Below, piece by piece: positions 1 through 12,807 of a DNA stretch of 64,000 bases (the stretch's first letter is position 1; every line of letters begins with the position of its first letter). The position numbers and the translations under genes were made by a program. The notes under the pieces are model-generated. The model did not search any database. It was not told where the DNA came from and saw nothing but the letters and a program-made list of their open reading frames with translations. The DNA is from Haloferax denitrificans ATCC 35960. Its GTDB lineage: Archaea; Halobacteriota; Halobacteria; Halobacteriales; Haloferacaceae. The stretch is from positions 186,001 through 250,000 of the forward strand of contig NZ_AOLP01000004.1 in assembly GCF_000337795.1 (NCBI RefSeq), in the 5' to 3' direction.

Positions 1-348
1 GATGGACTTCACGGTGCCGAACAGCGCGCGCTCGATGTCCGCCACCTGTTCTGGGTCGTCGACGACGGCGGCCGGACCGCGCCATTGGACGCCGCGATGC
101 TCGGCGTATTCCGATTCCCCGGCGTCGACGACCGCCGCGGCGACGCCCGTCGACCTGATGTTTTCGACCTTGACCGAGTCCGCGTCGGTCTCGAAACAGA
201 GGCGACCGTCGACGACCGCGGCGGCGACCGGCACGACGTGCGGCAGGCCGTCCGGACCGACGGTGGCGACGCGAGCGACCGGCGCTTCCTCGATGAGCGC
301 TACCTGCTCCGCCCGGGAGAGAGCGATTCTGTCGTAGTTCCGAACCAT
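1..348 (-). CDS. PPOX-class (FMN-binding split-barrel) protein, 3' end outside window
   Basis: Read on the minus strand from an ATG at 348, the frame stays open to the window edge (116 codons visible). It begins MVRNYDRIALSRAEQVALIE and continues with the beta-barrel pattern of pyridoxamine-5'-phosphate-oxidase-like proteins: APVARVATVGPDGLPHVVPV (residues about 23-42), then a second strand with FETD and a conserved RGVQWRGPAAVV segment. Family members bind FMN or F420 and act as reductases or oxidases on diverse substrates, so the substrate cannot be named. It starts 10 bp after the acyl-CoA dehydrogenase stop and is probably the last visible gene of the same operon. The C-terminus is missing only because the window ends. 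Confidence 0.75.
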   Translation of the reverse strand, partial: MVRNYDRIALSRAEQVALIEEAPVARVATVGPDGLPHVVPVAAAVVDGRLCFETDADSVKVENIRSTGVAAAVVDAGESEYAEHRGVQWRGPAAVVDDPEQVADIERALFGTVKSI

Positions 349-357
349 GGGCGACGC

Positions 358-1512
358 TCAGAGCCCCAGCGCCGCGCTCGCCACCGTGGTCTTTTGAATC
401 TCGGTGGTGCCGCCGATAATCGCGAGGATGCGGGCGTCGCGGTAGTACCGTTCGAGGGGGTAGTCCGTCCGGTAGCCCTTCCCGCCGTACACCTGCATGG
501 CGTTTCGGGCACAGAACTCCGCGGCCTCGCTCGCCGTGAACTTCGCCCGCGACGACACGCGGGTGTCCCCCTCTCCGTCGGCGATGCGGACCGCGGAGTC
601 GTAGACGAGACTGCGGGCCGATTCGAGTCGGGAGTCCATCTCCGCGACGAGCACCTGTACGGCCTGATACTCGCCGACGGCCTTGCCACCCTGTCGCCGG
701 TCGCCGGCGTACGCGACCGCCTCGTCGAACGCGGCGCGGCCGATTCCACAGCCGATGGCCCCGAGTCCCGTCCGGGCCATGTCGATAGTGCCCATCGCGA
801 TGCGGAAGCCCTGACCGACGGCTCCCAAGAGCGCGTCCGCGTCGACCGCGACGTCATCGAACGTCGAATCGCCGGTGACGTGCCCGTGCATGCCGAGGTA
901 CTCCCCTCGCTCGAACGAGAACCCGTCGACCTCGTCGGGGCTGGGGACGAGAAAGACGCTCACGCCGTGGGAGTCCTCGGGCTGTGGCCGTTTCCGCGCG
1001 ACGACGAGATGGACGTCGGCGACGCCCGCGTTCGTCCCGAACGACTTCTCTCCGGAGATTCGGTAGCCGGTGTCGGTCGCCTCGGCGACCGTCCCGAGTT
1101 CCGTCGGCGACGACCCCGCGCCGGGTTCGGTCAACAGCATCGACCCGACGGCGTCGCCGGCGACCATGTCGGGAAGCAGTCGTTCGCGCTGTGCGTCGGT
1201 GCCGAAGTTCAACACGGGGAGCATCGCGAACGTGTGGCCCTGAATCGTCTCCGCCACCGCGCCGCTCTCCTCGGCGATGCGCTCTATCGCGAGGCAGTAC
1301 GAGAGGAAGTCGCCGCCGAGGCCGCCGTACTCCTCGGGAACGAGAATCCCCAGCAGTCCGGCGTCGCCCGCGGCCTCGACGACGTCGCGGGGGAACTCTC
1401 GACTTCGCTCGATTTCTTCGGCGCGAGGGGCGACCGACTCCGTCGCAAACGTTTCCGCGCGGTCCAGCACGTCGTGGTGCTCCTCGGAGAGAGCACGCTC
1501 CAGTAACGTCAT
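358..1512 (-). CDS. Acyl-CoA dehydrogenase family protein
   Basis: This 384-residue protein has the normal length for an FAD-dependent acyl-CoA dehydrogenase. Visible signatures are LLTEPGAGSSPTELG (about 127-141, FAD and substrate loop), a C-terminal AMQVYGGKGYRTDYPLERYYRDARI block and GGTTEIQKT near the end. The ATG at 1512 (MTLLERALSEE) was chosen because the longer open frame upstream reads as antisense of the next gene. Odd point: the usual catalytic Glu of the YEGT motif is Gly367 here (IIGGTTEIQ), and the alternative isovaleryl-type Glu site is Ala246 (IDMARTG). It lies downstream of ubiD-like and metallo-beta-lactamase genes, consistent with acyl-CoA chemistry in the same pathway. Confidence 0.88.
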   Translation of the reverse strand: MTLLERALSEEHHDVLDRAETFATESVAPRAEEIERSREFPRDVVEAAGDAGLLGILVPEEYGGLGGDFLSYCLAIERIAEESGAVAETIQGHTFAMLPVLNFGTDAQRERLLPDMVAGDAVGSMLLTEPGAGSSPTELGTVAEATDTGYRISGEKSFGTNAGVADVHLVVARKRPQPEDSHGVSVFLVPSPDEVDGFSFERGEYLGMHGHVTGDSTFDDVAVDADALLGAVGQGFRIAMGTIDMARTGLGAIGCGIGRAAFDEAVAYAGDRRQGGKAVGEYQAVQVLVAEMDSRLESARSLVYDSAVRIADGEGDTRVSSRAKFTASEAAEFCARNAMQVYGGKGYRTDYPLERYYRDARILAIIGGTTEIQKTTVASAALGL

Positions 1513-1568
1513 ACCCTCCCCTCGTGTGTCGAGGACCTTATCTGTAACGCGAAACGGCGACCGCTCGG

Positions 1569-2546
1569 TCAGCGGTCGACGCCGTCGAACGACCGAGCGT
1601 CGCCCCTGACGTATCTGTCCGGCCCGACAGCGACCCGTTCGGCCAGCCCGCGGTCGGCGGCGAACGCCAGATGCGCGGCGGCCTCGCCGGCCCCCATCTT
1701 CGCGTGGATACCGCGCATCTCGCCGAACAGCGAGCGCGCGACGGCCCACGGAGTCACCCCGTCACCGTCCCGGTCGGGGAGCTCCGCGACGGCGGTTCGG
1801 ACCCGCTCGGTGTGGTGGGAGCGAATCGCGTCGATTCGGTCGAAGAGCTCGACCGACGAGCCGTGGCCGGGGAACGCGACCGGCTGGGCGTCGGCCTCGC
1901 GGGCGCGCTCTCGAATTCGGTCGAGCGTGTCGAGGTACGTCGCGAGCGCGTCGGTCAGTCTGGTGTCGGTGCCGCCGACGTTCGGCGTGTACGTCGGGAG
2001 GACCGCGTCACCGAGAAACAGGACGTCTCCGGCGTCGAGCACGACGTGTCCCGCGGTGTGTCCCGGCGCGTGAACGACCTCGACACCCCCCACTGTCGCG
2101 CCGTCGGTGAGCGTGACGACGGGGTACTCGTCGGGCATCGGAGACGGCTCGTCGGCGTCTCGAAGTGCCGAAACGAGGGCGTCGGGAACCCCCCACTCGC
2201 GGAGGCGGCGGGCGTCTCGGTCCAGTCGGAGGTTCCGCTCGGCGGCGTACGCCGCGACTAACGGCGCGTCGGCTTCGTGCAGGGCGAGCGTCGCGTCGGC
2301 GGCCGCCGCGAGTCTGGGTGCCAACCCGGCGTGGTCGGCGTGCCAGTGGGTGACGACGACCGTCTCGACCCGCTCGACGGGGAGCCCCGCCGCCGACAAC
2401 CCCGACCGCAGAACCTCCCACGACGCGTCTCCCGGCGGCCCCGGGTCGACGACGACGCCGCGGTCCGGGAGCACGTACGTGCTGTTTTCGCCTTCGGGGC
2501 TCGCGGCGGTGTGCGCGATGCGTTCTGTCCGCCCGACGGGGCTCAC
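1569..2546 (-). CDS. MBL-fold metallo-hydrolase
   Basis: This 325-residue metallo-beta-lactamase-fold hydrolase has the metal-binding motif THWHADHAG (His67, His69, Asp71, His72). Further ligands are visible as HAPGHTAGH, FLGDAVLP and a late PGHGS. The architecture matches glyoxalase II/RNase Z-like thioester or lactone hydrolases. The short helical C-terminal domain resembles the LACTB2-like family. The GTG start at 2546 overlaps the TGA of the upstream UbiD-like gene by 4 bp (GTGA), so the two are probably translationally coupled. A role in hydrolysing a CoA thioester or lactone intermediate is inferred from context only. Confidence 0.85.
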   Translation of the reverse strand: MSPVGRTERIAHTAASPEGENSTYVLPDRGVVVDPGPPGDASWEVLRSGLSAAGLPVERVETVVVTHWHADHAGLAPRLAAAADATLALHEADAPLVAAYAAERNLRLDRDARRLREWGVPDALVSALRDADEPSPMPDEYPVVTLTDGATVGGVEVVHAPGHTAGHVVLDAGDVLFLGDAVLPTYTPNVGGTDTRLTDALATYLDTLDRIRERAREADAQPVAFPGHGSSVELFDRIDAIRSHHTERVRTAVAELPDRDGDGVTPWAVARSLFGEMRGIHAKMGAGEAAAHLAFAADRGLAERVAVGPDRYVRGDARSFDGVDR

Positions 2547-4048
2547 TCGTCACCACCGCCCGTCGCGTCGCCTCGCTGGCCCCGCGGTTCGTGTTCGTCG
2601 CCGTGGTCGAACCCCATGTCGGCCCAGTCGGCCCGGACGGCCTCGCGGAGCGCCTCGGGATACATGGTCTCGAAGGTGACGCGCGGGGCGATGAACTCCT
2701 CGTCCCACCGGGGGTCCCACGCGGCGTTGACGTAGACGTTCGCGCCCGTCGCGCCGTCCTGTCGGTAGTACGGCGCGCTCGCCGCGGGTGCGGCGGAGTC
2801 GGAGAACTCCCAGTCGTTCGCCGGGTGCGCCTTCACCCAGATATCGTCGAACGCCCGCGCGAGGTCCATCGGGCGGGTCTCGGTGTCGAGCACGACGATT
2901 TTGTCGAAGAGCCGCGAGAACGAAAACAGCGTGTTGGCGAGTTGCCACTCGAAGCCCGCGTACAGGATTTCGCTGGCGACGAGGCAGATGCCGAGTCCGG
3001 TCTCCGCGGGCAACGCGAGCCACTCGACCGGCGCGACGCCCCAGTAGTTGTTCACGCGGCCGTACAGGCGGGCGGACTCGATGACCGAAAGGAGCGCGCG
3101 GCCGTCGGCCATCGGCGCGCCGGTCGGCGAGAACGGGACGACCGGGTTCTCGCGGACGGTCACCCGTTCGGCGCGGGCCTCGACGGTCGCGGTCGCCATC
3201 GCGTCCTCCCACGGCTCCCGACGCGTCTCTGGCGCTCGACCCGCGTCGTCGCCGTCGGCGCGACCCGTAATCGTCGCGTCCACGAGCACCTCGCTTTCCG
3301 CCGGGACGGCTCCCGCGGCCGTCGAGGCCACCGGAACCGGCCCGAACGCGTTCGCGATGGCCGGCGCGCCGGCGACCTGCGTCTCGCCGACCCAGCGCAT
3401 GATTGCGCCCACGAGCGCCGCCGGCGGCGTTCCGAGCGCGAAGGAGACGGTCGTCCCCGGGGCGACGTCGGCGGCGAGGTCCGCCGGGACCGAGAGCCTG
3501 AGCCCGTTGCTCCCGCGGACGGACCCCCGAACCGGGAACCACTCGACCGCGTCGGTATCGACCGCGTCGGACGCCCGTTCGCTGTCGGCATCGCCCCCGT
3601 CGTCGGCCGTTTTCGAGTGTGCGCCGAGGCCGAGGGTGACCGCCGGGACGCCGGTGTCCGAGACCGCCGGGAGTCCCAGCGACCGAAGGTCGGACACCGT
3701 CTCGGTGGCGGCCGCGGGTTCCACCGCGGGCACGGGACCGCCGTGGCGGGCGGCGACCAGCGCGTCGAGCACGTCGAGGTAGCCCGCGTCGAAGCCGAGT
3801 CCCAGCGCCGCGCCGAGACGCGACCAGGGGTCGCGCGAACGCACCGCGAGCCGGTCGGGACCGCCGAGTCCCCCGGCGAGGAGTCGCGCGTGGCCCCCGG
3901 CGTCCGTGAGGAGCACGGCCGGCCCGTTGGCCCGCGCCGCCTCGGCGCTCACCGCGAACGCGGTGTCCGCCCAGTGCGTCCGCTCGTCGATTCGGGCCAG
4001 GTCGTCGGCGTCGTCGAGCCGGTCGAGCAGGTCGCGAACGCCGAGCAT
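2543..4048 (-). CDS. UbiD-family paralogue, probably degenerate or non-catalytic subunit
   Basis: The 501-residue product starts at ATG 4048 (MLGVRDLLDRLDDADD) and shares its ATG base with the TAA of the preceding ubiD gene. It resembles UbiD in layout: an N-terminal domain, a central split barrel with MRWVGETQVAGAPAIANAFG in the position of the nucleotide-binding IGGEPA region, and a C-terminal domain with KIVVLDTETRP...VKAHPANDWEF. The catalytic UbiD segment, read as EGPFGDYFGY in the upstream gene, is replaced here by REPWEDAMATA. It is therefore probably a structural or regulatory partner, as in two-subunit UbiD-type enzymes such as phenylphosphate carboxylase. The longer open frame upstream of 4048 is a shadow of the neighbouring gene. 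Confidence 0.75.
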   Translation of the reverse strand: MLGVRDLLDRLDDADDLARIDERTHWADTAFAVSAEAARANGPAVLLTDAGGHARLLAGGLGGPDRLAVRSRDPWSRLGAALGLGFDAGYLDVLDALVAARHGGPVPAVEPAAATETVSDLRSLGLPAVSDTGVPAVTLGLGAHSKTADDGGDADSERASDAVDTDAVEWFPVRGSVRGSNGLRLSVPADLAADVAPGTTVSFALGTPPAALVGAIMRWVGETQVAGAPAIANAFGPVPVASTAAGAVPAESEVLVDATITGRADGDDAGRAPETRREPWEDAMATATVEARAERVTVRENPVVPFSPTGAPMADGRALLSVIESARLYGRVNNYWGVAPVEWLALPAETGLGICLVASEILYAGFEWQLANTLFSFSRLFDKIVVLDTETRPMDLARAFDDIWVKAHPANDWEFSDSAAPAASAPYYRQDGATGANVYVNAAWDPRWDEEFIAPRVTFETMYPEALREAVRADWADMGFDHGDEHEPRGQRGDATGGGDE

Positions 4049-5559
4049 TACAGGCTCCCTCCCTCGGTGCCGTCGACGGTGACACCGGCCGCCGAGAGGA
4101 TTTCGCGGGCGCGTTCCCGGACGAAGTCGTCGTCGAGACCGGCGTCGGCGCGGTTCCCGTCGTCGTCGCCCGAAGTGGCGTCGATGTACGCCTTCGTCGT
4201 CTTGGTCTTGGACGTGCCGGTCTCGCCGTCCCCTTTCTCCTCCGGCGTCTGGTAGATGTTCAGGGGGACTTTCGGCATCGCGACCGTGCCGAACTGGTGG
4301 AAGTCCGACTCCGGGTCGGCGTGGAGCGCGAGCGATTCGAGCACCTCCCGAATCGACAGCGGGTCCACGTCCGAGTCGACGAACACGAAGAAGTCGACGT
4401 GGAGCATCCCCCACGTGGTGAAGATGAAGTTCGCCAGTTCGTGGAGGTATCCGGGGCGGGAGACGTCGGTCGAAACGACGTAGACGGTCCGGGAGGTGAA
4501 CCGCCACGGAACGCACTTCTCGACGTCGTAGCCCGCCGTTCGCAGACCAAGCGTGGCGTCGGGTCCGACGCACGCCACTTCGAGCGTCGCGTTCGTGTTC
4601 AGCGTGTGGCCGACGCCCGAGCCCTCGACGCAGAACGGTATCACGGGCCGTCGTCGGTGGGTAATCGCGTCCACTTGGAGGACCGGCATGGAGCGGCGGG
4701 GACCGTGCATGTAGCCGAAGTAGTCCCCGAACGGTCCCTCGTCCAGTCGTTCGTTCGGCACTACGTGCCCCTCGACGACGATTTCGGCGTTCGCCGGCAC
4801 CAACAGGTCGTTCGTCTCGCACTCGACGAGTTCGACCGGCTCGCGCTTCAGCCCGCCGGCGAACCCCGCCTCGTCGCGCCCCGTGGGAATCCACATCGAG
4901 GAGGTCACCTGCGTCGCGGGCTCTCCCCCGATGACGAGCGCGACCGGCATCGGCTCGCCCCGTCGTTCGTACTTGTAGTAGTAGATGTTCGGCGTCTGCT
5001 CGCCCGCGAGGAGAAGCAGGCTCGCGCGCTCGCCGTCCTGCACCATCGCCCGATGCACCGACCAGTCTATCCACTCCGAGTCGGGGTCCTTGACGACCAT
5101 CGTGTGGAGGTTGGAGTACCGCCCGCCGTCGCCGGCGTGGATGTACGGCCACGGGAGCGACAGCAGGTTGGCGTCCTCGCCGCGCCGAACGACCTCCTTG
5201 CAGGGCGCGTCGCCGCCGTCGACGGTTTCGGGAGCGATGGGGCGCTTGAGCCGGTCGATGACCGTCTCGTAGTACTCGTCGGCGGACAGTCCCGGGTCCA
5301 GTCCGAGCGCGAGGGCGATTCGGTCCCACGGCCGCCGCCGACTGCCGCGGTACGGGTCGCCGACGAGTCGCGCGTCGATGTCCGTGTCCGCGACCGACTC
5401 GAAGAGCGGAATCCGGTCGTCGCGCTGGTTCGCGAGCATCGTTATCGCGCTCGCTTCGAGGTCCCACGAGACCGACCGGTCGATGCGAGCGACGTCGCCC
5501 CGGCGTTCGAGACGCGCGACGTACTCGCGGAGACTCTCCGTGGGGTGGTCGGCGCTCAC
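4048..5559 (-). CDS. UbiD family (prenylated-FMN) decarboxylase
   Basis: This 503-residue protein is the usual UbiD length. Members reversibly decarboxylate aromatic or alpha,beta-unsaturated acids using prenylated FMN. Diagnostic segments are LPWPYIHAGDGGRYSN, VALVIGGEPATQ (about 180-190), the catalytic-loop motif NERLDEGPFGDYFGY and ESDFHQFGTVAMP. The first catalytic Glu of the E-x4-E/D pair is present and the second position is Asp. The start is GTG 5559, which overlaps the upstream stop by 4 bp. No ubiX (prenyltransferase making the cofactor) is visible in the window, so it must lie elsewhere. The substrate is unknown; an aromatic carboxylate or its CoA ester is inferred from the gentisate genes nearby. 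Confidence 0.9.
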   Translation of the reverse strand: MSADHPTESLREYVARLERRGDVARIDRSVSWDLEASAITMLANQRDDRIPLFESVADTDIDARLVGDPYRGSRRRPWDRIALALGLDPGLSADEYYETVIDRLKRPIAPETVDGGDAPCKEVVRRGEDANLLSLPWPYIHAGDGGRYSNLHTMVVKDPDSEWIDWSVHRAMVQDGERASLLLLAGEQTPNIYYYKYERRGEPMPVALVIGGEPATQVTSSMWIPTGRDEAGFAGGLKREPVELVECETNDLLVPANAEIVVEGHVVPNERLDEGPFGDYFGYMHGPRRSMPVLQVDAITHRRRPVIPFCVEGSGVGHTLNTNATLEVACVGPDATLGLRTAGYDVEKCVPWRFTSRTVYVVSTDVSRPGYLHELANFIFTTWGMLHVDFFVFVDSDVDPLSIREVLESLALHADPESDFHQFGTVAMPKVPLNIYQTPEEKGDGETGTSKTKTTKAYIDATSGDDDGNRADAGLDDDFVRERAREILSAAGVTVDGTEGGSL

Positions 5560-6059
5560 GTCTCGTCACCACCGGTGAGCCGCCTCGAGAGGTCGTTTTG
5601 TTCGAGGCGGACTCGTCGCTCGACGTATCGGTCGAGGAGCAACGGCCGGGTCTCGGCGAGGTGTTGGGTCACGAACGTCCGGACCGCCTCGGAGACGGAG
5701 TCGTACTCCCCGGTCTCGACGAGGTACGTGACGAGGGCGCGGACGTCCTCGCTTCGCACCGTGACCACGTCGGACTGCGTTCGACTCTGCTCGATGCATC
5801 GGTCGAGGACGCCGTCGTCGACCGGGGCCCCGTCGAGGTCGGCCTCGATTATCTCGATATACCACTGCTCTTCGACGTTCTCGTGGGGGCCGCGGAGCAC
5901 CGTCAGCGGTTCCGGGTCGTCGAGGTCGTGACTGTCCCGCGAGAGGCGCGCACGCGTCTGAAATATCTCCTTCGTCTCCTGATTCGTCACCTGAACCGTC
6001 ACTTCCCCCCCCGTGTCTGCCGGCAGGTGGTCCTCGGACGTGATGTACTGCGGACTCAT
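5556..6059 (-). CDS. Ribbon-helix-helix-like protein heading the ubiD operon
   Basis: This 167-residue acidic protein was not recognised as a known family. Residues about 98-135 (VVTVRSEDVRALVTYLVETG, then SVSEAVRTFVTQHL) have the beta-helix-helix spacing of an Arc/MetJ/CopG ribbon-helix-helix DNA-binding domain. The N-terminal 75 residues are predicted beta-rich (GGEVTVQVTNQETKEIFQTR). The C-terminal 30 residues are strongly charged. ATG 6059 was chosen because the residues upstream in the longer frame are not protein-like. It is the first gene of the operon, and its stop overlaps the ubiD GTG. Two perfect palindromes lie 120-160 bp upstream, so autoregulation is plausible. An accessory subunit of the decarboxylase is the alternative. 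Confidence 0.6.
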   Translation of the reverse strand: MSPQYITSEDHLPADTGGEVTVQVTNQETKEIFQTRARLSRDSHDLDDPEPLTVLRGPHENVEEQWYIEIIEADLDGAPVDDGVLDRCIEQSRTQSDVVTVRSEDVRALVTYLVETGEYDSVSEAVRTFVTQHLAETRPLLLDRYVERRVRLEQNDLSRRLTGGDET

Positions 6060-6398: not shown

Positions 6399-6908
6399 TC
6401 ACTCCACGTAGCGATGCGGCCCGGCTTCGACGAACTCCCTGCCGAGTTCGACGTAGTGGTCGCGCGTGTCGTCGATTTCGGCCAGTTGCGCGTCCGAAAG
6501 CGGTCGGGTTTCCGCGGGGACGCCGTACGCGAGATGGCCCGACGGCACGGTCTGGTCGTGGGTGACGACGGCGTTCGCGGCGACGATGCTGTGGGACTCG
6601 ACGGTCGCCCCGCCGAGGACGCGGCTCCCCATCCCGACGAGCGCGTCGTCCTCAACGGTCGCGAAATCGACGACCGCGCCGTGGCCGATGCTCACGCCGT
6701 CCCCGACCGTCGCGCCGTGGAGCATCGTGAACTCCTGTACGTTGGTGTCCGCGCCGACCGTCACGGCCCCCCGGTCGCCGCGGAGGCAGACGAACGGCCA
6801 GAGACTCGCGCGGGGTCCGACTGCGACATCTCCCACGAGGTACGCCATCTCCGAGACGGACGCGCGTTCGTCTATCACCGGTTCCATCCCGTCGAACGTG
6901 TGTTGCAT
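6399..6908 (-). CDS. Gamma-carbonic-anhydrase-like left-handed beta-helix protein
   Basis: This 169-residue protein has hexapeptide-repeat (left-handed beta-helix) structure through most of its length, matching the YrdA/PaaY gamma-carbonic-anhydrase group. Two of the three expected zinc-ligand histidines are visible: His64 in MLHGATVGDG and His76 in IGHGAVV. The third, in the usual LHG position, is Asp81 (VVDFATVEDD). The protein could bind metal differently or may not be a carbonic anhydrase. PaaY-type relatives act as thioesterases in phenylacetate catabolism, which would suit the neighbourhood. A TATA-like CCACTATACC at about 6930-6940 (minus strand) suggests a leaderless transcript beginning at ATG 6908. 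Confidence 0.8.
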   Translation of the reverse strand: MQHTFDGMEPVIDERASVSEMAYLVGDVAVGPRASLWPFVCLRGDRGAVTVGADTNVQEFTMLHGATVGDGVSIGHGAVVDFATVEDDALVGMGSRVLGGATVESHSIVAANAVVTHDQTVPSGHLAYGVPAETRPLSDAQLAEIDDTRDHYVELGREFVEAGPHRYVE

Positions 6909-7024: not shown

Positions 7025-7903
7025 ATGAAGTTCGTTCGATTCAACCAGAGCCAACTCGGTCTGTTGACCGACGACGGCGAGGGTATCGTCGATTTGACCG
7101 ACCGCCTCGGGCTCACGAGCGACGAGCCGCTCGTCGAGTACATGGAAGGGGACTACGACGCGAGCGAGTACGTCGACGCCGACGCCGATGTCGACGTGTC
7201 GGACGTCACGCTCGAAGCGCCGGTCGAACGCCCCGGGAAGGTCATCGCCGCGCCGCTCAACTACGAGAACCACATCGCGGAGGCCATCGCGGACAAGGAC
7301 ATCACGACCGACGAGTGGTTCTCCATCAAGGACAAGGGCTACTTCCTGAAGGCCCCGTCGAGTGTCATCGGCCCCTCGGAGAACATCGTCATCCCGTTTT
7401 CCGACCGCCGAATCGACCACGAAATCGAACTCGCGTTCGTCATGGGCGAGGAGTCGAAAGACGTCTCCAACGACGAGGCGTGGGAGAACATCTTCGGCTA
7501 CACGATTCTCCTCGACATCTCCGTCCGCGGCGACCAGGACCGCTCGAACCGGAAATCCTACGACACCTTCACCGTCGTCGGCCCCTGCGTCGTCACGCCC
7601 GACGAGGTCGGCGACCCCCAGTCTCTCGACCTCGAACTCGCCGTGAACGGCGAGGTCCGTCAGTCCGAAAACACCAGTGAGATGGTGTACACGTGCGCGG
7701 ACGTCGTCCAGTACGCCTCCATCGGCGCGACGATAGAGGTCGGCGACGTCATCACGACCGGGACGCCGGAAGGCGTCGGCCCCCTCGCGGACGGCGACAC
7801 CGTCGACGCGACAATCGAGAACATCGGTTCGATGACCGTCGGCGTCGAAGAACGCGACGTGTCGTTCGCCGACGTGGACGTCCAGAAGCACGGCCAGAAC
7901 TGA
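7025..7903 (+). CDS. Fumarylacetoacetate hydrolase family protein (candidate fumarylpyruvate hydrolase)
   Basis: This 292-residue enzyme belongs to the FAH family, which cleaves C-C bonds in 2,4-diketo acids using Mg2+ or Mn2+. Metal ligands are visible as Glu133 and Glu135 in DHEIELAFVMG and Asp164 in LLDISVRGDQ. The C-terminal block ITTGTPEGVGPLADGDTVD is the family signature. The N-terminal 70 residues are the usual small beta domain. In the gentisate pathway an FAH enzyme converts fumarylpyruvate to fumarate and pyruvate. A gentisate dioxygenase-like gene lies 7 kb downstream, so that role is the best inference. Other diketo-acid substrates remain possible. The ATG at 7025 sits about 30 bp from the TATA element. 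Confidence 0.88.
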   Translation: MKFVRFNQSQLGLLTDDGEGIVDLTDRLGLTSDEPLVEYMEGDYDASEYVDADADVDVSDVTLEAPVERPGKVIAAPLNYENHIAEAIADKDITTDEWFSIKDKGYFLKAPSSVIGPSENIVIPFSDRRIDHEIELAFVMGEESKDVSNDEAWENIFGYTILLDISVRGDQDRSNRKSYDTFTVVGPCVVTPDEVGDPQSLDLELAVNGEVRQSENTSEMVYTCADVVQYASIGATIEVGDVITTGTPEGVGPLADGDTVDATIENIGSMTVGVEERDVSFADVDVQKHGQN

Positions 7904-8253: not shown

Positions 8254-11200
8254 ATGACGACGCGACAGACAGCCGCCACCGACCCGGCAGACGCATCGGA
8301 CACGAACTACGACTACGTGAGCGACGACGTCGAACGGCCGGACCTCGTCGCCGCGCTCGAACGGCGCGTCAGCGGCGACGTCCGCTTCGACTCCTACTCC
8401 CGCCAGCTGTACGCGACCGACGCCAGCGCCTACGAGGTGACGCCCATCGGGGTCGTCTTCCCGGCGGACACCGAAGACGTCGCGGCGGTCGTCGAATACT
8501 GCGCACGGGAGGACGTCCCCGTGCTCCCGCGCGGCGGCGGGACGAGCCTCGCCGGACAGACGGTGAACGAGGCGGTCGTCCTCGACTTCACGAGATACAT
8601 GGACGCGCCGCTGTCGGTCGACCCCGAGGCGCGGACGGCGCGCGTCCAGCCGGGCGTCACGCTCGCAAAGCTGAACGAGACGCTCGCGCCGCACGACCTG
8701 AAGTTCGCGCCCGACCCCGCCGCCGGGAACCGGAGCGTCATCGGCGGCGCAATCGGGAACAACTCGACGGGGTCGCACTCGCTGAAGTACGGCAAGACCG
8801 ACGCCTACGTCGAGGAAGTCGAGGCCGTCCTCGCCGACGGGACGGTGACGACGTTCGGCGAGGTCACGCTGGACGCGCTCCGCGAGGGGGCCGACCCCGA
8901 CGGGAGCATCCGAGAGCGCGTCTACGCCGAAGTCCACCGCATCCTCGAATCCGAGTCGGACCTCGTCCGCGAGCGCTACCCCGACCTGAAGCGCAACGTC
9001 TCGGGCTACAACCTCGATTGGCTCGTCGACGAGGCCGAGTCGGGGTCGGTGAACCTCGCTCGACTGCTCGCCGGCTCCGAGGGGACGCTCGCGCTCATCA
9101 CCGAGGTCACCGTCTCGCTCGAACCCGTCCCGGAGACCAAAGCGGTCGCGCTTCTCACCTACGACGAGCTGATGACGGCGGTGAGAGACGTCGTGGCGGT
9201 CCTCGAACACGACCCGGCGGCCGTCGAGTTCATCGACGACACGCTCATCGACCTCGCCGGCGACACCTCGGAGTTCGAAGACGTCGTGGGGATGCTCCCC
9301 GACGGCACGCGGGCGGCGCTCCTCGTCGAGTTCTACGCCGAAGACGACGAGACCGGCCGCGAGAAGGTCGACGCGCTCGTCGCGGACCGCGTCGGCGAGA
9401 GCGCCGTCGACGCCATCGAGGCCCACGACGAGGCGGCGCGCGGCCGCGTCTGGAAGCTCCGGAAGGCCGGCAATCCGATTCTGCTCTCGCGGACGACCGA
9501 CGAGAAACACCTCTCGTTCATCGAGGACTGCGCCGTTCCGGCCGAGCACCTCCCCGAGTTCGTCGGCGGATTCCGCGACGTGCTCGACGACCTCGGGACG
9601 TTCGCGGCGTTCTACGGCCACGCCGGGCCGGGCGTCCTGCACGTCCGCCCGCTCGTCACAACGAAGACCGCCGAGGGCCTCGCGACGTACGAGGAGATTT
9701 CCGACCGAGTGACCGAGCTCGTCGTCGACCTCGGCGGGAGCGTCTCGGGCGAACACGGCGACGGTCGGGCGCGCACCCAGTGGAACCGCAGGCTCTACGG
9801 CGACTCGCTGTGGGAGACGTTCCGAGAGCTGAAGACGGCGTACGACCCCGACTGGCTCCTCAACCCCGGACAGGTCTGCGGCTACGAACCGGACGAGTCG
9901 CTCCCGGACGACACGCCCGAGCGCGCCCGGCGCGTCTCGATGACCGACGACCTGCGATACGACCCCGACTACGAGTTCGACGCCGGCTTCGACCCCGCGC
10001 TCGAATGGGCGAACGACAACGGGTTCGAGGGGATGGCCGAACTCTGTCACGGCTGTGCCGGCTGTCGCGGCGACCAAGACACGACCGGCGGCGTGATGTG
10101 TCCGACCTACCGGGCCAGCGGCGAGGAGATACAGTCGACGCGCGGCCGCGCGAACCTCCTCCGGCAGGCGATGAGCGGCGACCTCTCGGCGGACGAGCAG
10201 TTCGACGTCGAGTTCATGCACGAGGTGCTCGACCTCTGTATCGGCTGTAAGGGCTGTTCGAACGACTGTCCGAGCGAGGTCGACATGGCGAAGCTGAAAG
10301 CCGAGATGACCCACGAGTACCACCGCCGCGAGGGGGCGAGCCTCCGCGATAAGCTGTTCGCCAACGTCGACACGCTCTCGAAGGTGGGGAGCGCGTTCGC
10401 GCCCGTCTCGAACTGGGCGACGAAACTCCCGGGCGCGCGGTCCCTGTTGGAGTCCGCGGTCGGCATCACGTCCGAGGCGACGCTCCCGTCGTTCGAGCGC
10501 GAGACGCTCCACGACTGGTTCGAGGCCCGCGGCGGGTCGCAGGTCGCCCCGGCGGACGCCGAGCGGACGGCCGTCTTCTTCGTCGACACGTACACGAACT
10601 ACAGTCACCCGGAACCCGGAAAAGCGGCCGTGCGCGTGCTGGAGGCGGCGGGCGTTCGCGTCGAACTCGCGGACCACACCGACAGCGGCCGGCCCGCGCA
10701 TTCGAAAGGCTTTCTCGATATCTCGCGGGACACGGCGCGCGAGAACGTCGCAGAACTCGCCCCGAAGGTCGAATCGGGACGCGACGTGGTGTTGGTCGAG
10801 CCCTCGGACGCGGTGATGCTCCAGTCGGACTACCTCGACCTGCTCTCGGGGCCCGCCGTCGAGCGGGTCGCTCGCAACACCTACGGCGTGATGGAGTACC
10901 TCGATTCGTTCCGACTCGACGAGCGACTGGCGTTCGACGCGCCGAGCGAGTCGCTCGCCTACCACGGCCACTGTCACCAGAAGTCCGTGAAGAAAGACCA
11001 CCACGCGGTCGGGGTGCTCAGGCGCGCCGGCTACGCGGTCGACCCGCTCGATTCGGGCTGTTGCGGGATGGCCGGAAGCTTCGGCTACGAGGCCGAACAC
11101 CGGTCGATGAGCGACGCTATCGGGGACATCCTCTTCGAGCAGGTGGCGGCGAGCGACGGACAGCGGGTCGTCGCGCCGGGCGCGTCGTGTCGGACCCAAC

Positions 11201-11280
11201 TCGGCGACCGCGACGACGACGCGGAACGCCCCCCGACACCAATCGAACAGGTCGAGCGGGCCGTCCGAACCGCACGGTAG
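8254..11280 (+). CDS. Two-domain FAD-binding and Fe-S oxidoreductase (GlcD/D-lactate dehydrogenase type)
   Basis: This 1008-residue fusion oxidises a 2-hydroxy acid at the membrane face. The N-terminal half has a PCMH-type FAD domain (PVLPRGGGTSLAGQTV at about 90-105, then AAGNRSVIGGAIGNN) and a FAD-oxidase C-terminal domain ending in GEHGDGRARTQWNRRL. The C-terminal half has Fe-S ligation segments LCHGCAGCRG...MCPTYR and CIGCKGCSNDCPSEVD, then a CCG domain with HGHCHQKS and SGCCGMAGSFGYE. This architecture is that of D-lactate or D-2-hydroxyglutarate dehydrogenases. The likely start, ATG 8254, lies about 15-25 bp after the TATA-like element. Its relation to the aromatic genes may be oxidation of a hydroxy acid product; this is inference. 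Confidence 0.88.
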   Translation: MTTRQTAATDPADASDTNYDYVSDDVERPDLVAALERRVSGDVRFDSYSRQLYATDASAYEVTPIGVVFPADTEDVAAVVEYCAREDVPVLPRGGGTSLAGQTVNEAVVLDFTRYMDAPLSVDPEARTARVQPGVTLAKLNETLAPHDLKFAPDPAAGNRSVIGGAIGNNSTGSHSLKYGKTDAYVEEVEAVLADGTVTTFGEVTLDALREGADPDGSIRERVYAEVHRILESESDLVRERYPDLKRNVSGYNLDWLVDEAESGSVNLARLLAGSEGTLALITEVTVSLEPVPETKAVALLTYDELMTAVRDVVAVLEHDPAAVEFIDDTLIDLAGDTSEFEDVVGMLPDGTRAALLVEFYAEDDETGREKVDALVADRVGESAVDAIEAHDEAARGRVWKLRKAGNPILLSRTTDEKHLSFIEDCAVPAEHLPEFVGGFRDVLDDLGTFAAFYGHAGPGVLHVRPLVTTKTAEGLATYEEISDRVTELVVDLGGSVSGEHGDGRARTQWNRRLYGDSLWETFRELKTAYDPDWLLNPGQVCGYEPDESLPDDTPERARRVSMTDDLRYDPDYEFDAGFDPALEWANDNGFEGMAELCHGCAGCRGDQDTTGGVMCPTYRASGEEIQSTRGRANLLRQAMSGDLSADEQFDVEFMHEVLDLCIGCKGCSNDCPSEVDMAKLKAEMTHEYHRREGASLRDKLFANVDTLSKVGSAFAPVSNWATKLPGARSLLESAVGITSEATLPSFERETLHDWFEARGGSQVAPADAERTAVFFVDTYTNYSHPEPGKAAVRVLEAAGVRVELADHTDSGRPAHSKGFLDISRDTARENVAELAPKVESGRDVVLVEPSDAVMLQSDYLDLLSGPAVERVARNTYGVMEYLDSFRLDERLAFDAPSESLAYHGHCHQKSVKKDHHAVGVLRRAGYAVDPLDSGCCGMAGSFGYEAEHRSMSDAIGDILFEQVAASDGQRVVAPGASCRTQLGDRDDDAERPPTPIEQVERAVRTAR

Positions 11281-11418
11281 AACGGGGGGCTCCGAACAAG
11301 GTAGAACGGCCCGTCCCGAACCGCATCGGAGTCGGCCTGAGCGCCGACCCGCGGACGCCCGCGACGGCGGGTCCGCGGGGTCGAAAGCACTATGCTCCTG
11401 TTCCGAATACGTGCTGAC

Positions 11419-12807
11419 GTGACTCACCAATTCGAACTCGACAGACTGTTCGACCCGTCTTCTATCGCGGTCGTCGGGGCGTCGACGAAGGAGGGAAAAA
11501 TCGGCTACGAGGCGATGGAGAACGTCCACGACTTCGGCGGGCGGGTCTACCCCGTCAACCCGTCCGCCGAGGGCACCGCGTTCGGCGAACCGTTCGTCGC
11601 GTCGGTGACCGACATCGACGACGACGTCGACCTCGCGTTGCTCTGTGTTCCCGCGCCGGTCGTGCCGGAGGTCATCGAAGAGTGCGGCGCGGCGGGCGTG
11701 GGTGCCGCCGTCATCTACTCCGGCGGCTTCGCCGAGGCCGGCGACGACGGCGCGGAGATACAGCGCCGACTCACCGAGACTGCCAACGAACACGGCATCG
11801 CCCTGCTCGGCCCGAACACGAGCGGCTTCGTCATCCCCCGGACGGGGCTGTACGGCTCGTTCGCCACCGGCGTCGAGAGCTTCCCGGCGGGCGACCTCGC
11901 AATCGTCGCCCAGAGCGGCGGCGTCGCCCACTCCATCGCGTTTCAGGCGACCCGCGAGCGACGCGGGCTCTCCGCGATGGTCGGGCTGGGCAACCGCGCG
12001 AACGTCGGCTTCGAAGAGGTCATCGAATACCTCGACGGCGACCCCGACACCGGCGCAATCGTACTCCACGTCGAGGGGACCGACGACGCGCGCTCGCTCC
12101 TCGAAACCTGCTACGACGCGGAGACGCCCATCTTCGCCTACAAGGTCGGTGAAGCGGACGTCGGCGACTTCGCCGAGTCGCACACCGGCGCGCTCACCGG
12201 CGACCACGCGCTCTATCAGGCCGGGTTCGCGCAGTACGGGGTGCCGACGGTCGACTCGACGAGCCAACTCCTCGACGCCGGCCACGTCGCGGCGACCGCG
12301 CCGCTCCCGGACGGGACGAACGTCGGCGTCGTGACGGCGCAGGCCGGCCCCGGTATCATCATCGCGGACCGCCTGAAACAGGCGGGCGTCTCGCTCCCGC
12401 CGCTCGAAGACGAGACGAGGGCGACGGTGAACGAGATTCTCCCCGGCATCACGTACTCGGCGAACCCTGTCGACACGGGGCGGCCGATGCCGGAGTTCGG
12501 CGAGGTTGTCCGCGCGGTCGCGGCCGACGAGAACGTCGACGCCGTCCTCGTGTACGAGCTTCACGAGGCCGCGCTCGGGTTCCCCACCGAGGACCTCGAC
12601 GGGCTCGCGGAGTCCGTCGGAAAGCCGGTCGTGTTCGCGACGGCCGGCCCCGAATCGCTCCTCGAACCGGACCGCGAGGAACTCGAATCCGTCGGCGTCC
12701 CCGTGTTCGAGTCGCCCGAGCGGGCCGCCGATACTATCGCCGCGCTCGCCGAGTATGCGCGCGTCACTGCGGACGCCGCGCCCGCGGAGGTGGTCGACAA
12801 TGCGTGA
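11419..12807 (+). CDS. ADP-forming acyl-CoA synthetase, alpha subunit
   Basis: This 462-residue protein (from GTG 11419) is the alpha subunit of an ADP-forming acyl-CoA synthetase, which interconverts acyl-CoA + ADP + Pi and acid + CoA + ATP. It has a CoA-binding Rossmann start (SIAVVGASTKEGKIGYEAM), ligase-CoA segments LLGPNTSGF and AQSGGVAHS, and the phosphohistidine loop ESHTGALTGDH with His255, close to the catalytic His of Pyrococcus enzymes. An in-frame ATG at 11392 would add nine residues. The TATA-like ACTATGCTCC at about 11389-11398 makes GTG 11419 the better leaderless start. The beta subunit gene overlaps by 8 bp. Substrate is unknown; an aromatic or branched acid is plausible here. 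Confidence 0.88.
   Translation: MTHQFELDRLFDPSSIAVVGASTKEGKIGYEAMENVHDFGGRVYPVNPSAEGTAFGEPFVASVTDIDDDVDLALLCVPAPVVPEVIEECGAAGVGAAVIYSGGFAEAGDDGAEIQRRLTETANEHGIALLGPNTSGFVIPRTGLYGSFATGVESFPAGDLAIVAQSGGVAHSIAFQATRERRGLSAMVGLGNRANVGFEEVIEYLDGDPDTGAIVLHVEGTDDARSLLETCYDAETPIFAYKVGEADVGDFAESHTGALTGDHALYQAGFAQYGVPTVDSTSQLLDAGHVAATAPLPDGTNVGVVTAQAGPGIIIADRLKQAGVSLPPLEDETRATVNEILPGITYSANPVDTGRPMPEFGEVVRAVAADENVDAVLVYELHEAALGFPTEDLDGLAESVGKPVVFATAGPESLLEPDREELESVGVPVFESPERAADTIAALAEYARVTADAAPAEVVDNA

Follow-up and report, generated by a model that had tools for sequence, protein, structure and literature searches.

Can a UbiD-family enzyme operate without the prenylated flavin mononucleotide (prFMN) that UbiX makes? 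UbiD enzymes are described as needing this cofactor, and the question is raised by six minus-strand genes at the beginning of a 64,000-nucleotide stretch of Haloferax denitrificans ATCC 35960 DNA (bases 186001-250000 of contig NZ_AOLP01000004.1; the whole stretch is hereafter called the window, and coordinates are relative to it unless stated otherwise). The genes span position 6059 down to just beyond the left edge of the window and encode a small RHH-like protein (g1), a UbiD protein (g2), a UbiD-like protein (g3), a metallo-beta-lactamase-fold (MBL) hydrolase (g4), an acyl-coenzyme A (CoA) dehydrogenase (g5), and a PPOX protein (g6). We found that g1, g2, and g3 (hereafter the trio) form a conserved unit of haloarchaea, that UbiX is absent from the sampled genomes carrying it, and that the cofactor-metal positions of g2 are altered. 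Judging from sequence, the trio may encode a UbiD-family heteromer independent of UbiX-made prFMN, likely acting as a (de)carboxylase; we give this reading about an even chance of being right.

Three genes kept as one unit

The initial annotation, made from the letters of the DNA, had taken the six genes for one operon in which most neighbors overlap by 1-4 bp. All six are present as placed, but only g1, g2, and g3 are constant across loci, which rules out a six-gene module. Three of the five junctions do overlap (g1/g2 by 4 bp, g2/g3 by 1 bp, g3/g4 by 4 bp), but g4/g5 and g5/g6 are separated by gaps of 56 and 9 bp. Across loci, a 4-bp overlap between g2 and g3 is nearly universal. Among 243 genomes sampled from the order, 57 contain a match to g3, and in the 40 loci that we fetched the three genes are adjacent and in the same order (39 are complete; the other, L070, reaches the end of its contig inside g2). 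When the g3 alignment was run against 84,980 species, it yielded 58 loci, fewer than the limit of 80; all belong to haloarchaea, and g1, g2, and g3 are contiguous in 58/58 named species; the synteny that the initial annotation had suggested looking for in other haloarchaea is thus present for the trio.

All three genes are under purifying selection: dN/dS (nonsynonymous over synonymous substitution rate) between close pairs is 0.04-0.20 for g1, 0.07-0.32 for g2, and 0.05-0.21 for g3. Their pairwise divergences correlate (r 0.92-0.95), and the g2 and g3 subtrees are much alike in branching; the g2/g3 tree has long branches, and we draw from it no inference on the origin of the two genes. Linkage, parallel divergence, dN/dS, and similar subtrees together indicate that the trio is kept and inherited as one unit. 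Since selection is purifying and divergence parallel, g1 is part of the set and g3 is no pseudogene, a possibility ruled out by its dN/dS and its strongly conserved C-terminal domain. The linkage has already been noticed by annotators, as g1 is called "ubiD operon protein" in one NCBI record; a literature search on haloarchaeal UbiD or this gene set found nothing specific.

UbiX is missing where the trio is present

We scored UbiX (TIGR00421, over its cut-off) and UbiD (PF01977) in the same 243 genomes and found them in 24 and 82 genomes, respectively; a control search of Haloferax volcanii gave no match to UbiD. The initial annotation had proposed a check for a genome-encoded ubiX; TIGR00421 identified none in any of the 57 trio genomes, and the mechanism is therefore likely to differ from the one first supposed. 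In contrast, 24 of the 25 genomes carrying only other UbiDs have UbiX, the sole exception being 72% complete. The split is sharp both by genome (Fisher p 8e-20) and by genus (21 versus 11, with no shared genus, p 8e-9). For the broader flavoprotein family PF02441, every trio genome has exactly one protein, of CoaBC length where listed; in genomes that have UbiX, the count is nearly always two. Several of the trio genomes are finished or close to it, and a UbiX elsewhere in the genome of the window could be ruled out, the sole PF02441 protein there being CoaBC. Given this absence, the trio probably uses a variation on UbiD chemistry.

The catalytic network and cofactor site of g2

The g2 protein exceeds the Pfam cut-offs for the UbiD N, rift, and C domains (PF01977 229 bits, PF20695 48.8, PF20696 46.9). 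The UbiD catalytic motif is defined as RXnEX4(E/D) (PMC5818171). Its Arg, Glu, and Asp (R170, E274, and D279 of g2) are invariant in 98/98 g2 sequences, and E230, at the E233 position, is likewise unchanged in all 98. Because this network is kept without exception, (de)carboxylation is the most likely activity. As had been read from the window, the catalytic loops of the two UbiD-family proteins differ, with EGPFGDYF in g2 and REPWEDAM in g3.

For the metal ligands we considered the positions of Asn168 and His191 in Fdc1 of A. niger. All g2 sequences have Gln at the His191 position and Glu at the preceding one (K/Q190), and the Asn168 position is occupied by D, R, T, H, S, or Q, with N in only 2/98. 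In the window, g2 has D165 where Asn168 would be, and E187-Q188 replace the usual UbiD K/Q-His. Among 17 other haloarchaeal UbiDs, 15 have N at 168 and 13 have H, D, or N at 191. The phosphate of prFMN is tied to the protein by Mn2+ and K+ (PMC7976604). The proposal of an active UbiD subunit therefore survives in one respect, the intact Arg-Glu-Asp motif, but g2 is no plain prFMN UbiD, because the cofactor-metal positions are altered. Neither UbiX nor the metal residues of the prFMN kind were found, and we therefore class the trio as a UbiD-family variant and as no known decarboxylase.

Could the trio instead be an ordinary prFMN-dependent two-subunit (de)carboxylase, in haloarchaea where an unrecognized prenyltransferase has replaced UbiX? 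The g2 protein retains the whole motif used by prFMN enzymes, plus E233, and overall it is strongly similar to HudA and Fdc1. Yet nearly every other UbiD of the order is accompanied by UbiX, and His191 and the preceding Lys/Gln are replaced in each g2 sequence, so that we regard this explanation as rather unlikely.

The partner chain and the small protein

The g3 protein matches UbiD_C (4.6e-8) and UbiD_N (1.3e-5), domains found in 40/40 and 34/40 of its family members, respectively, and its predicted fold is closest to HudA (E 2e-23, TM 0.65). The second UbiD had been called degenerate at the catalytic loop, and indeed the motif is lost in 18/18 representatives: the E282 position holds R, P, K, S, or W, E233 is lost, and R173 is present in 10/18. 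Most invariant residues lie in the C-terminal domain. The segment 398-458, among the most conserved, has a predicted local distance difference test score (pLDDT) below 50 when g3 is modeled alone, which would fit a segment that folds on its partner.

In g1, the N-terminal domain is conserved (Y5, T7, P13, E19, Q23, and GPHE at 57-60 are invariant) and the C-terminal part is weakly RHH-like in profile searches (CdrS E 0.0038, ParD E 0.14). ParD is also the best match in structure comparison (7ycs, Z 4.4), the few matches with Z above 4 being RHH antitoxins. Sequence and fold searches gave no significant match of g1 to any family, fold, or known accessory protein. Upstream of g1 we found no shared operator: recurring 8-mers occur in few sequences, near TATA-like stretches, and recurring dyads are few, so that a regulator role is without support from DNA sites. 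The N-terminal conservation and the constant linkage suggest that g1 is more than a generic regulator.

Two catabolic settings

The trio sits in clusters of two kinds, both of which look, from their gene content, like CoA-dependent carboxylic acid catabolism. Type I, as in the window, includes the MBL hydrolase, the Glu-less dehydrogenase, an epoxidase, a ligase, and hydratases, to which named species add an aldehyde dehydrogenase, a thiolase with an HMG-CoA-synthase-like protein, CoA-transferases, and an ATP-binding cassette transporter or formate dehydrogenase. A close PaaA (at least 75% identical) occurs in 31 genomes of the order, and the trio is present in 30 of these; the genome without it is 77% complete. 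Type II comprises the trio, an AMP-forming ligase, an acyl-CoA dehydrogenase, a biotin carboxylase, a carboxyltransferase, MaoC, and a CoA ester lyase. The module for an aromatic or acyl-CoA substrate that was initially envisaged agrees with these clusters of aromatic and acyl-CoA catabolism, but its MBL, dehydrogenase, and PPOX partners occur in one cluster type only. Two side observations concern particular loci. The type II loci L106, L167, and L168, two of which have the CoA ester lyase, resemble a leucine/isovalerate-like route, which is not known to include a UbiD step; and in two species (L105 3661-4674; L107 5021-6013) the neighborhood of the trio includes a gene with the annotation anthranilate phosphoribosyltransferase (trpD).

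Such different pathway settings would fit a UbiD fold that had been repurposed to bind an acid or CoA ester, for non-CO2 chemistry such as isomerization or hydrolysis, or as a pathway scaffold. The altered cofactor site, the motif-less partner chain, and the g2-specific invariants GPRRSMP and NIYQTPxEKG point the same way, and the aerobic aromatic-CoA epoxidase route is not known to require a decarboxylase. However, the Arg-Glu-Asp network has a known role in prFMN chemistry and shows no exception in g2, and we consider such repurposing unlikely.

The type I neighborhood also brings to mind a phthaloyl-CoA-decarboxylase-like enzyme supplying benzoyl-CoA to the epoxidase. Nearby are a PaaA/PaaC-like epoxidase, a member of the benzoate-CoA ligase family (398 bits versus a cut-off of 375), and, in some species, CoA-transferase pairs; moreover, the g2 profile hits phthaloyl-CoA decarboxylases, which are UbiD-family enzymes, with an E of 2.7e-13. 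This match is far weaker than those to HudA or Fdc1, type II clusters would be left unexplained, and the known relatives use prFMN; we find this identity highly improbable.

A proposed UbiX-independent complex

In the reading that we prefer, g1, g2, and g3 would form one UbiD-family complex working without UbiX-made prFMN. The catalytic chain would be g2, in which the Arg-Glu-Asp ionic network is intact; g3, which has the UbiD fold but no longer the network, would be a structural or substrate-binding partner; and g1 may be a small accessory subunit or else a regulator or an assembly factor specific to the g2-g3 pair. The substrate would be an aromatic or unsaturated acid, (de)carboxylated where a CoA-ligase-dependent pathway begins: in type I the aromatic-CoA epoxidase pathway, in type II an acyl-CoA dehydrogenase/biotin carboxylase/hydratase pathway. 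The physical complex, the catalytic role, the reaction, the substrate, and the choice of cofactor (plain FMN, another, or none) are what we infer here. More tentatively, and somewhat below an even chance, we propose that the trio represents a haloarchaea-confined UbiD-fold lineage in which two unlike chains, one intact and one without the motif, form a heteromer that (de)carboxylates without prenylated flavin, with plain FMN, another cofactor, or none.

Several points weigh against the preferred reading. The Asn168 position does not by itself identify a prFMN enzyme, since it is Ser in HudA, whose use of prFMN is proven; the cofactor argument therefore rests on His191 and its neighbor together with the absence of UbiX. 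In type I g2 proteins, D165, E187, and E230 could form a different metal site, and prFMN might come from a flavin prenyltransferase that has no relation to UbiX. Genomes are non-independent samples, though the split persists by genus, and the low pLDDT of g3 398-458 may have another cause, the shallow alignment of 40 sequences.

With UbiX missing from its genomes but kept by nearly all other UbiDs around it, this clade offers a clean natural test of whether the UbiD fold can do without prFMN, and also of what a motif-less UbiD chain contributes. It further points to an uncharacterized step in the way haloarchaea break down aromatic and acyl-CoA compounds aerobically.

Layout of the locus

The features of the locus are collected in Table 1. 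Its closest named match is in Haloferax sulfurifontis ATCC BAA-897 (99%).

Table 1. Genes and loop motifs of the Haloferax denitrificans locus, in window coordinates
Feature	Position	Strand	Remarks
g1, small RHH-like protein, 167 aa	5556..6059	-	Always the first gene of the trio
g2, UbiD-family protein, 503 aa	4048..5559	-	Three UbiD Pfam domains
g2 catalytic loop EGPFGDYF, residues 274-281	4717..4740	-	Belongs to the RXnEX4(E/D) motif
g3, UbiD-fold partner, 501 aa	2543..4048	-	Motif of the rift (cofactor-binding) domain lost; C-terminal domain strongly conserved
REPWEDAM of g3	3197..3220	-	At the place of the EGPxGE loop; W280-E281 do not vary among family members
g4, MBL-fold metallo-hydrolase, 325 aa	1569..2546	-	Directly after the trio in most type I clusters
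g5, acyl-CoA dehydrogenase family, 384 aa	358..1512	-	Occurs in type I clusters; IIGGT, with the catalytic Glu replaced
g6, PPOX-class FMN/F420 protein, 143 aa total	1..348	-	Extends 84 bases left of the window (L003:9917-10348)

The initial annotation was right in calling g5 a Glu-less acyl-CoA dehydrogenase: it reads IIGGT where aligned structures have the usual IYEGT. Gly occupies the position in all type I orthologs whose motif was read. The nearest NCBIfam models of g5, acryloyl-CoA reductase and 3-sulfinopropanoyl-CoA desulfinase, are both far below cut-off.

Past g6 lies a convergent aromatic-CoA epoxidase set (PaaA-, PaaD-, and PaaC-like), followed by an enoyl-CoA hydratase, a short-chain dehydrogenase/reductase, the benzoate-CoA ligase family member, and MaoC proteins. 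The epoxidase set (L003 7324-9880, left of the window) falls well short of the curated cut-offs for PaaA and PaaC and is accompanied by the ligase; from sequence, it possibly acts on another aromatic CoA ester. The corresponding Haloterrigena turkmenica region also has formate dehydrogenase genes. Immediately upstream of g1, a hexapeptide protein of the gamma carbonic anhydrase/PaaY kind is encoded at 6399-6908 (-), and a gamma carbonic anhydrase family gene is likewise annotated near the trio of Haloarcula sp. JP-L23. Farther on, a fumarylacetoacetate hydrolase family gene (7025-7903) adjoins a pair at 8254-12807 (+) consisting of an FAD/Fe-S oxidase (D-2-hydroxyglutarate dehydrogenase-like) and an ADP-forming acyl-CoA synthetase alpha-type gene.

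Comparison with known systems

The best sequence and fold matches of both g2 and g3 are the pyrrole-2-carboxylate decarboxylase HudA/PA0254 and Fdc1, which share the catalytic motif with g2. These are single-gene homodimers with UbiX-made prFMN held by Mn2+/K+ (PMC7976604), whereas the trio has a two-chain pair, no UbiX, and altered metal positions. In the vanillate and gallate decarboxylases VdcBCD and LpdBCD, as in the trio, a UbiD chain comes with a small protein; theirs is an accessory protein, in the case of LpdD a prFMNH2 chaperone (PMC10865409). These decarboxylases differ from the trio in including UbiX (VdcB/LpdB) and in having no second UbiD-fold chain, and g2 falls short of the VdcC cut-off (190 versus 650 bits). 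The other haloarchaeal UbiDs belong to the same Pfam family and archaeal order, but have UbiX alongside in 24 of 25 genomes and form a clade separate from g2.

Two different UbiD chains, which in the trio are encoded together, are needed by phenylphosphate carboxylase (alpha and beta, with gamma and delta) and by the phenylphosphoamidate carboxylase of Desulfatiglans anilini. In Thauera, phenylphosphate carboxylase has a small extra subunit, a further likeness to the trio. However, the NCBIfam cut-offs for its alpha and beta chains are far above the scores of g2 (182 versus 564.6 and 110 versus 469 bits) and g3 (31.9 versus 564.6), and, unlike for phenylphosphate carboxylase, no phosphorylating synthase was found in the annotated trio neighborhoods. 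In vitro, the enzyme of D. anilini is reported to be active with Mn2+, K+, and plain FMN (PMC7500099). Its chains are 52% identical to each other, whereas g3 is without the motif, and D. anilini has a ubiX-like gene, which the trio genomes lack. By analogy, the trio would work like a further step beyond these two-UbiD enzymes, with the network in one chain, none in the other, and UbiX gone.

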